From assembly GCA_944392965.1 (NCBI GenBank), contig CALXYM010000005.1, forward strand, positions 1-64,000: DNA of 64,000 nt. The letters are read 5' to 3'. Position 1 is the first letter of the stretch. The number at the start of each line of letters is the position of its first letter. Of this stretch, positions 16,092 through 56,983 are shown piece by piece. Made by a program: the position numbers and the translations under genes. This stretch comes from an uncultured Spirochaetaceae bacterium (GTDB taxonomy: Bacteria > Spirochaetota > Spirochaetia > Sphaerochaetales > Sphaerochaetaceae). The notes beneath the pieces were generated by a model that saw only the letters and a list, made by a program, of their open reading frames with translations, was not told the origin of the DNA and ran no database searches.

Positions 16092-16164
16092 TAGCAAGAG
16101 AGGGACTCGGACCCCCGACCGACCGGATATGAGCCGGTTGCTCTACCTACTGAGCTATCTTGCC
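16092..16164 (-). tRNA. tRNA-Met (CAT), elongator type
   Basis: A 73-base cloverleaf read by eye: acceptor GGCAAGA/TCTTGCT with a G1-U72 wobble, D stem GCTC/GAGC, anticodon stem ACCGG/CCGGT with loop CTCATAT (anticodon CAT), five-base variable loop, T stem GGGGG/CCCTC and T loop TCCGAGT. CCA is not encoded. The anticodon stem lacks the three G-C pairs of an initiator tRNA. A CAT anticodon can also belong to tRNA-Ile2 (lysidine-modified); I favour elongator Met. Confidence 0.88.
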
Positions 16165-54742: not shown

Positions 54743-54904
54743 TATAATCCAGTCATACTCTACACCTCCAACTAATAAAGAAGGTAAATTCCTTTGCCAA
54801 GAGGAAAAAACCCATGCTAAAATTATTTAAAGACAGTGTGACGGGGCTTCCCCGCACATTCCGCGGAGAGCCCTCCCCTGTTAAATAAAACCGGGAGGTA
54901 TAGT
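54743..54904 (+). promoter_or_regulatory. Structured leader of hppA, candidate riboswitch-like element
   Basis: A TATAAT -10 (54743-54748) predicts a ~150-base leader. It contains a very stable hairpin TGTG(A)CGGGG-CTT-CCCCGCACA (54837-54858). The same GGGCT (54844-54848) can instead pair with AGCCC (54869-54873), and CCTCCC (54872-54877) can pair with the ribosome site GGGAGG (54893-54898). These pairings exclude one another, as expected for translational control. It does not match the fluoride or other riboswitch motifs I can recall. Confidence 0.5.
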
Positions 54905-56983
54905 ATGCAGGATTTGCTACCAATTTTCTTCGCGCTCTCTTTCCTGACAGCAGCCATTGCTTTTCTCTTCGCCCTGTACCTCTATTTCTGGGTAAAAAAA
55001 CAGAAGATAGAGAACAGAGAGATCATAAGGGTATCACAACTGATAAAAGAAGGGGCAGAGACGTTCATGGGCAGGGAGTACAAACTTCTTGGACTCTTTG
55101 CACTCGTCGTATCCCTCGTCATACTGATCCTACTGCCTCATCCGATCTGGCAAGGATCCGTGATTGACAACATATCCATGGTCATAGCCTATCTTGCTGG
55201 GACAGTTCTCTCCGCAATCGCCGGGAAAATAGGAATAATGGTCGCAACCCTTTCTAATGGACGCACAGCAGAGGCAGCAAAAAGAGGATTGAAGGATGCC
55301 TTCCTCGTGGGATTCAGAGGAGGTGCGGTAATGGGCCTTTTAGTCGTGGGATGCTCGCTTCTCGGCGTTACCGCGGTCCTGATGATCGCAGGAGACACGA
55401 GCATTCTTCTCGGCTTCTCATTTGGAGCAAGTTCCCTTGCCCTGTTTGCGAAAGCGGGAGGAGGGATATTCACCAAGACCGCAGACGTGGCTGCAGATCT
55501 GACGGGAAAGGTTGAGCTTGGAATAGCTGAGGACGATCCGAGAAACCCGGCTGTGATCGCAGACAACGTCGGAGATAATGTTGGAGATGTCGCCGGAATG
55601 GGTGCAGACCTCTTTGATTCGAATGTCGCAGCAATGACATCGGCGCTCGTAATCGCCTCCAGTATCGCAGACTCGGCACTGCATGTCATGGAAATGGTAT
55701 TCTGTTATGCACTCCTAGGCCTGCTTGCATCGATAATCGGAATAGCGACTGCAAGGGTTGGGAAGGACGGAAATCCGACAAAAGCCCTCAATTCCTCCAC
55801 ATATGTGACAACAGGAATATTCCTCGTCCTCACAGCTCTGGCAACTTTCTTCATCGACGGTTTTTCTTGGAGAATATGGGGATCTTCTGCAACAGGTCTC
55901 ATCGTTGGCCTCATCATAGGCTTGACAACCGATTACTTTACTGACGACACGAAGCCGATAGTAGGGAAAGTTGCAAAGGCTTCAGCATCCGGGCCTGCGT
56001 TCACAATCCTCTCCGGTACTTCATACGGATTCATCTCCGCTTTCCCTGCAATGGTGGGAATAGCGTTCTCCGCCCTGATATCCTATCAGTTATGTGATCC
56101 GCTTGGAGAGGGATTCGCACTGTTCGGAATAGCAATGTCTGCAGTAGGCATGCTGTCAATCGTCGGCATGATAATCTCTAATGACGCTTACGGCCCCGTC
56201 GTGGACAATGCGAGAGGCCTGGCTGAGATGGGAGGACTCGGAGAGGAGACGATAAAAATCGCAGATGAACTGGACAGTGCGGGAAACACGGTCAAGGCAG
56301 TGACAAAAGGATTCTCCATAGGGGCTGCAGGACTGACTGTAATATCACTCTTGGGTGCTTTCATGGCAGAGACCAATGAAGTACTGAGAGCGGCAGGAAA
56401 GGCCCTCATTACAGGTTTCGATATCATGCAGCCTACCGTATTCTTCGGCATCCTCGTAGGGGCAGCGGTTCCAGCTGTATTCTCTGCCATGTTGATTCTC
56501 GGGGTGGACAGGAACGCAGAGAGGATGGTGGGAGAGATACACAGACAGTTCGATACCATCCCCGGTTTGAAAGAAGGACATGCAACCCCTGAGTATGCGA
56601 AGTGCATCGACATCGCGACGAAGGGGGCTCTGAAGGAGCTGATCCCGGCAGGAATGGTCGCAATCATAGCGACACTGCTCGTAGGTTTCATCGGAGGTCC
56701 TACTGCGATAGGAGGTTTCCTTCTTGGTAATATCGTAAGCGGTCTGCTTCTGGCTCTCTTCATGTCCAACTCGGGTGGCCTCTGGGATAACTCAAAGAAA
56801 TATGTCGAAAGCGGAGCCGAGGGAGGAAAGGGAAGCGAGGCTCATAAGGCTGCTGTCATCGGAGATACAGTCGGAGATCCATATAAGGATACCGCAGGGC
56901 CGTCGATAAACACCCAGATAACAGTAGTCTCTCTTGTATCGTCCCTCTGCAGCTCTCTGTTCGTGGCATTCTCTCTTTTCTAA
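54905..56983 (+). CDS. hppA: Membrane-bound proton-translocating pyrophosphatase
   Basis: A 692-residue integral membrane pyrophosphatase with ~16 helices that couples PPi hydrolysis to ion pumping. The active-site cluster DVAADLTGKVELGIAEDD, then NPAVIADNVGDNVGD (about 205-230) and a matching C-terminal GDTVGDPYKDTAGPSIN are complete. The potassium-dependence site reads GNTVKAVTKG, with Lys in the position that marks K+-independent enzymes, which are proton pumps in the characterised cases. CGGGAGGT precedes the ATG. With pfp it shapes PPi metabolism. Confidence 0.97.
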   Translation: MQDLLPIFFALSFLTAAIAFLFALYLYFWVKKQKIENREIIRVSQLIKEGAETFMGREYKLLGLFALVVSLVILILLPHPIWQGSVIDNISMVIAYLAGTVLSAIAGKIGIMVATLSNGRTAEAAKRGLKDAFLVGFRGGAVMGLLVVGCSLLGVTAVLMIAGDTSILLGFSFGASSLALFAKAGGGIFTKTADVAADLTGKVELGIAEDDPRNPAVIADNVGDNVGDVAGMGADLFDSNVAAMTSALVIASSIADSALHVMEMVFCYALLGLLASIIGIATARVGKDGNPTKALNSSTYVTTGIFLVLTALATFFIDGFSWRIWGSSATGLIVGLIIGLTTDYFTDDTKPIVGKVAKASASGPAFTILSGTSYGFISAFPAMVGIAFSALISYQLCDPLGEGFALFGIAMSAVGMLSIVGMIISNDAYGPVVDNARGLAEMGGLGEETIKIADELDSAGNTVKAVTKGFSIGAAGLTVISLLGAFMAETNEVLRAAGKALITGFDIMQPTVFFGILVGAAVPAVFSAMLILGVDRNAERMVGEIHRQFDTIPGLKEGHATPEYAKCIDIATKGALKELIPAGMVAIIATLLVGFIGGPTAIGGFLLGNIVSGLLLALFMSNSGGLWDNSKKYVESGAEGGKGSEAHKAAVIGDTVGDPYKDTAGPSINTQITVVSLVSSLCSSLFVAFSLF

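Follow-up and report, generated by a model that had tools for sequence, protein, structure and literature searches.

Does the region just upstream of the membrane pyrophosphatase gene hppA control that gene at the RNA level and, if so, by what means? The question arises from a stretch of 64,000 nucleotides from an uncultured Spirochaetaceae bacterium (the whole stretch analysed, hereafter referred to as the window), in which an initial annotation had noticed, ahead of hppA, a hairpin and two competing pairings, one of them with the Shine-Dalgarno (SD) sequence, and had compared the leader to a translational riboswitch or ion sensor. Our analysis indicates that the hppA leader is probably a real control element; the case for it rests on conservation and not on the single sequence.

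The hppA leader and its two folds

The features of the locus are listed below, with the evidence for each in brackets.

54905..56983, plus strand: hppA, membrane pyrophosphatase, 692 aa (PF03030, E 1.1e-225; NF001960, 812 bits, cut-off 546)
54794..54823, plus strand: putative promoter, TTGCCA-18-TAAAAT with TG ahead of the second hexamer (consensus scan; promoter-like words placed alike in relatives)
54830..54904, plus strand: predicted leader RNA, 75 nt, with two mutually exclusive computed folds (two-state folding; folding order)
54837..54858, plus strand: hairpin P1 of the closed fold, UGUG(a)CGGGG / CCCCGCACA (folding; shuffle p 0.021)
54832..54882, plus strand: long hairpin of the open fold, GACAG/CUGUU, GGGGCUU/GAGCCCU and CCGC/GCGG (two-state folding; shuffle p 0.009; consensus fold of the four nearest leaders of the same type)
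54872..54877, plus strand: anti-SD, CCUCCC (sequence; two-state folding; consensus fold of 11 leaders)
54893..54898, plus strand: SD of hppA, GGGAGG (sequence; two-state folding)

NCBIfam model NF001960 labels the HppA of the window as sodium-translocating, and the H+ model TIGR01104 falls just below its cut-off (636.7 of 651.9 bits); the GNTVKA stretch of this protein suggests the K+-independent type. The consensus promoter scan yielded one match, with 2.4 expected in shuffles, and the promoter-like words found at matching places in relatives are better support for the start of transcription than this lone match. From the promoter, we infer that transcription starts at about position 54830, just ahead of the leader structures.

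All three of the annotated pairings were found in the leader: P1 is a hairpin of 9 bp with one bulge, GGGCU can pair with AGCCC (54869-54873), and CCUCCC is complementary to the GGGAGG of the SD, which lies 6 nt upstream of the hppA AUG at 54905. AGCCC and CCUCCC share 2 nt, and the competition that had been deduced from their overlap is borne out by the calculations, which give two exclusive folds. The GGGCU/AGCCC pairing lengthens to GGGGCUU (54843-54849) and GAGCCCU (54868-54874), and it runs on as one long hairpin, missed by the initial annotation, with an outer helix formed by GACAG (54832-54836) and CUGUU (54878-54882) and an inner helix formed by CCGC (54852-54855) and GCGG (54863-54866). 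The closed fold combines P1 with the CCUCCC/GGGAGG pairing and hides the SD (-27.4 kcal/mol, the best fold with the SD paired). The open fold is the single hairpin, with its three parts stacked, which sequesters the anti-SD so that the SD stays unpaired (-21.3 kcal/mol, computed with the SD and everything downstream held unpaired). The minimum-energy fold of the leader consists of P1 and the anti-SD:SD pairing.

In dinucleotide shuffles of the window's leader alone, the p-values were 0.021 for P1, 0.009 for the alternative helix and 0.072 for the anti-SD:SD pairing, and none of 200 dinucleotide shuffles of the stretch upstream of the SD had both folds at the observed stability. This two-state shuffle test is weak and unspecific, because 32 of 168 leaders from the same genome also pass it (both p-values at most 0.01), partly since leaders unable to close count as passing; it was therefore dropped as a means of finding genes. 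In absolute energies, two of the 168 leaders, hppA among them, reach -21 kcal/mol or lower for the open fold together with -27 kcal/mol or lower for the closed fold.

Retention of the two folds in relatives

The hppA gene was found in 45 of 48 genomes from the genus. Across the family, where the cut-off was a strict 1e-150, 56 of 139 genomes gave a hit. Ten genomes of the same genus (G002-G005, G029, G030, G032, G037, G040 and G044) have only a distant hppA (35-44% identical) instead of the 73-89% identical one. G010 has two hppA copies (G010:C17 and G010:C25), and a fragment matching the last 65 residues, with one internal stop, lies about 1.3 kb behind the hppA of G034 (G034:C21:18833-19027). 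At most g1 loci, hppA is preceded by the conserved promoter TTGACG-17-TTAGACT, whose -10 box deviates from the TATAAT consensus. We assigned promoters to 41 leaders, of which 20 were covered by the shuffle test of helices, 14 by the folding-order analysis and 37 by the refolding control, the sets of 20 and 14 being picked after the sequences had been inspected. L033-L044, L131 and L136-L146 (no promoter assigned, or a distant hppA) were left out of the leader analysis, and L007, L021, L024 and L032 were too short for the folding tests.

The three nearest leaders (L002-L004, with proteins 88-89% identical) keep GUGAUGGAGA, CCUCC and GGAGG. Those from a second genus (L126, L129, L130 and L132-L135) have the same layout in different letters. 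In every one of these leaders, a portion of P1 is able to pair with the strand holding or adjoining the anti-SD: by GGUGGAGA/UCUCCACC in L129, by GUUCAG/CUGAAC with GGGCAGC/GCUGUCC in L132, by GUGUGA/UCGCAC in L003 and by GUGUGA/UUGCAC in L004, the last two with GGAG/CUCC. A shorter version, with a CAGGAUG/CGUCCUG pairing and the SD GGACGG, is found in L005, L008, L016 and L022, and L025-L029 and L031 have two exclusive hairpins with UCCAGC in common, without pairing of the SD.

In the 20 leaders covered, P1, the alternative helix and the SD pairing were each tested against 3000 shuffles. When eight long leaders from the two genera (L001-L004, L126, L129, L132 and L135) were combined by Fisher's method, the alternative helix reached p 2.8e-9, the SD pairing 5.5e-5 and P1 4.3e-5. 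These values overstate the case, since the eight leaders are related by descent and were selected once their sequences had been looked at. L128 fails the test of the alternative helix (p 0.25) and L135 is weak (0.094). RNAalifold returned the open fold for the four nearest leaders (11 pairs, three of them changed on both sides) and the closed fold, P1 with anti-SD:SD, for the alignment of 11 leaders (nine pairs, two double-changed); neither consensus fold was imposed, the two alignments yielding one fold each. In the open-fold alignment, 95.5% of the cells were paired versus 45-64% when the alignment was slid, and 14 of 500 shuffles reached the observed double changes. In the closed-fold alignment, the corresponding values were 85.6% versus 41-66%, with two of 500 shuffles reaching that percentage and 164 of 500 reaching two double-changed pairs. 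Both folds appear to persist in relatives of two genera while the letters turn over.

Order of folding and distribution in the HppA tree

Folding order was computed for 14 leaders. For the RNA just before the SD emerges, the minimum-energy fold was the open one in all 14. For the full-length leader, the closed fold was the lowest in 13, and L008 gave a tie (-16.9 against -16.8). The barriers from open to closed were 7-20 kcal/mol, as estimated by a path search and not by kinetics. In the refolding control, the open-to-closed change was found in 12 of 14 lineage representatives (L001-L005, L008, L016, L020, L022, L126, L128, L129, L132 and L135, the misses being L008 and L135). The corresponding frequency was about 31% among their shuffles and 30 of 168 among the leaders of the own genome, hppA included. 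A binomial calculation by hand (12 of 14 at 0.313) gave about 4e-5 for rows that are related. In the control set of 37 leaders, 16 refold, and outside the clade described below the count is one of 13.

A tree of 40 HppA proteins places all those leaders that have competing helices, and for which a full protein was available, in one clade of 21 rows (support 96/93); L031, L134 and L135, for which only the gene start was fetched, are absent from this tree. The clade comprises nine long leaders, five of intermediate length (L005, L008, L016, L022 and L020), five of the UCCAGC type, L127, in which no leader structure was found, and the doubtful L128. The leaders outside the clade are short: a 5'-terminal hairpin with a free SD is present in L006, L009, L010, L011, L014 and L015, and others, including several close relatives, have no leader structure at all. 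The element looks like a gain specific to this clade that has outlived the replacement of its letters and has been lost at least once.

In L010, L012, L013, L017 and L019, and also in L011, L014 and L023, an ATG lies about 7-8 nt past the -10 box, at or beside the predicted first base of the RNA, and the bases that follow vary. This ATG could be the start of a leaderless upstream frame, or merely a favoured start sequence.

Readings of the element

We tentatively favour the interpretation of the leader as an hppA-specific, two-state (kinetic) element of translational control in the style of the MS2 maturation gene. During transcription, the 5' strand would pair with the downstream C-rich strand to form the one long hairpin, sequestering the anti-SD, so that the SD would emerge free and ribosomes could load. 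The finished leader being more stable as P1 with anti-SD:SD, transcripts without engaged ribosomes would then slip into the closed state, and translation of hppA would be set by the rate of ribosome arrival relative to the rate of refolding. The two folds with their energies, the sequence in which they form and their persistence in relatives are computational results, from which we infer that both folds form in cells and affect hppA translation in this manner.

The MS2 precedent is a phage leader in which, according to the portion of PMC6733600 dealing with it, a transient fold admits ribosomes before the closed structure settles. On that description it resembles the hppA leader, open when nascent and closed when finished, the hppA states being minimum-energy folds only. 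However, the MS2 leader is phage RNA with a cloverleaf, whereas hppA lies on a chromosome and has a leader of 75 nt that forms two simple sets of hairpins, and the two are likened by description and are not homologous as far as is known. The same source, in its part on the aapA3 type I toxin mRNA of Helicobacter pylori, describes exclusive hairpins and an anti-SD that form successively during transcription; there the transient hairpins hide the SD and prevent early translation, whereas the transient fold of hppA is predicted to free it, i.e. the reverse.

A rather unlikely but serious alternative is a static leader, in which selection would act only on a stable 5'-terminal hairpin (e.g. for protection of the mRNA) and on a moderate level of translation; the second fold would then arise incidentally from inverted repeats with SD-like and anti-SD-like words in common. 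The 5'-terminal hairpins with a free SD outside the clade are consistent with this explanation, as is the frequency of refolding among shuffles (about 31%) and control leaders (30 of 168). However, both folds are retained across lineages, with 12 of 14 representatives refolding, and the group of L005 retains its unusual SD, GGACGG, in a form matching its anti-SD. A riboswitch of unknown class, in which a ligand (an ion, PPi, phosphate or other) would stabilise one of the two folds, appears improbable. Translational riboswitches usually have exclusive folds with an overlapping anti-SD as their expression platform, and such folds were computed here; this part of the annotated comparison, competing folds that hide or free the SD and are kept in related genomes, is supported, whereas the proposal of a metabolite or ion sensor (for PPi, phosphate, fluoride or ions) found no support in this analysis. 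Aptamers normally retain conserved loop nucleotides, but no invariant unpaired or loop nucleotides were found across 11 leaders. All the invariant columns among these leaders lie in a helix of either fold or in the SD (as mapped by hand on an alignment uncertain in places), and this confinement speaks against an aptamer. The sequence turns over rapidly, the element is limited to a single HppA clade, and no second gene carries the motif: covariance models run on 48 (R2) and 139 (R1) genomes had strong matches only at the hppA leaders of G000, G008, G022 and G046, all of them training rows. In 19 relatives, model R2 picked out four long-leader loci, again training rows without exception. It recovered none of the other leader types, so the shorter leaders escape recognition by sequence. 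Eleven of the weaker matches were inspected and all were treated as chance: by our reading, seven lie in or across the starts of coding frames, L171 comes just after a frame, and no long frame was found at L173, L175 and L177. L173 (G114) and L175 (G109), from another genus of the family, look like intergenic hairpins and have an alike hairpin sequence, CCTCCCACCGG...CAATGGGAGG. A search of the window with Rfam 15, as the initial annotation had proposed, returned at gathering scores only the tRNA gene at 16092-16164 on the minus strand and, at E values up to 10, just a chance match to U7 at the leader; no family was found at the leaders of the relatives either.

The remaining readings bring in translation, a binding partner, temperature or DNA. 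Control by a leader peptide, in which translation of a short upstream frame would shift the balance of helices, seems highly doubtful. An ATG occurs in 31 of 41 leaders, in many relatives about 8 nt past the -10 box, and the frames read MRAASSLAVLL in L132-L134 and share xILxRP in L005, L008, L016 and L022; erm-type leader-peptide attenuators of translation likewise have exclusive helices, one of which holds the SD. However, the hppA leaders, unlike the erm-type attenuators, have no conserved upstream peptide, the window's own leader has no ATG, the upstream frames overlap hppA in differing ways, and the codon differences in all six pairs of the L005 group were 1-2 synonymous versus 2-3 nonsynonymous of 7. 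A conserved upstream peptide was therefore rejected, given the ATG missing from the window's leader and the lack of codon-level constraint among four comparable relatives (ATG starts). We consider equally doubtful the binding of one fold by a protein or small RNA acting in trans. Several leaders contain GGA words in the loop of P1 and in the SD, and GGA hairpins close to an SD usually point to CsrA as the candidate, but the P1 hairpins of L001, L132 and L135 lack GGA, and CsrA (PF02599) was not found in the own genome, 95% complete, by a search whose control gave a hit in 3 of 14 known genomes; control by CsrA was rejected on this basis. An RNA thermometer, with a closed fold melting on warming, is very improbable: the SD is largely paired at low temperature and, in L005, L008, L016 and L132, its computed opening increases by more than 0.3 from 10 to 55 C, but the response is nearly flat in the other 10 of the 14 leaders, that of the window included (0.01 to 0.04), and the thermometer was discarded as a general property. 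We give hardly any credence to a DNA operator, i.e. a P1 palindrome bound by a repressor beside the promoter. L002-L004 have an inverted repeat, GTGATG...CATCAC, directly after the promoter, but the half-sites vary among the P1 leaders and contain G-U pairs, which suit RNA and not DNA, and no second site with the motif was found; the operator was dropped for want of conserved P1 half-sites.

Among described leaders of ion-transport genes, the Na+-I (DUF1646) riboswitches are RNAs upstream of such genes, according to the part of PMC9337991 that presents them, and they have this position in common with the hppA leader, which differs from them in having no match to an Rfam family and no conserved aptamer nucleotides. 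The word pyrophosphatase is absent from the text of PMC9337991, and, judged from search listings, we found no description of RNA-level control of a membrane pyrophosphatase gene in the open-licence PubMed Central literature.

If the two-state kinetic control that we favour holds, it may amount to an RNA timer that works without an aptamer on a housekeeping gene of the chromosome, a more speculative and rather improbable proposal: new hppA transcripts would be translatable for a limited time and would then lock themselves, the design would have outlasted most of its letters within one clade, and the output of the pyrophosphate pump would be tied to the supply of ribosomes or to the speed of transcription. 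If real, the leader would be a short switch between two states that lacks a conserved aptamer and belongs to a kind missed by sequence-driven searches for riboswitches, since the pairing logic alone is kept, and its natural variants, such as L008 with nearly equal folds and L127 without structure, would permit direct tests of the kinetic control of translation.
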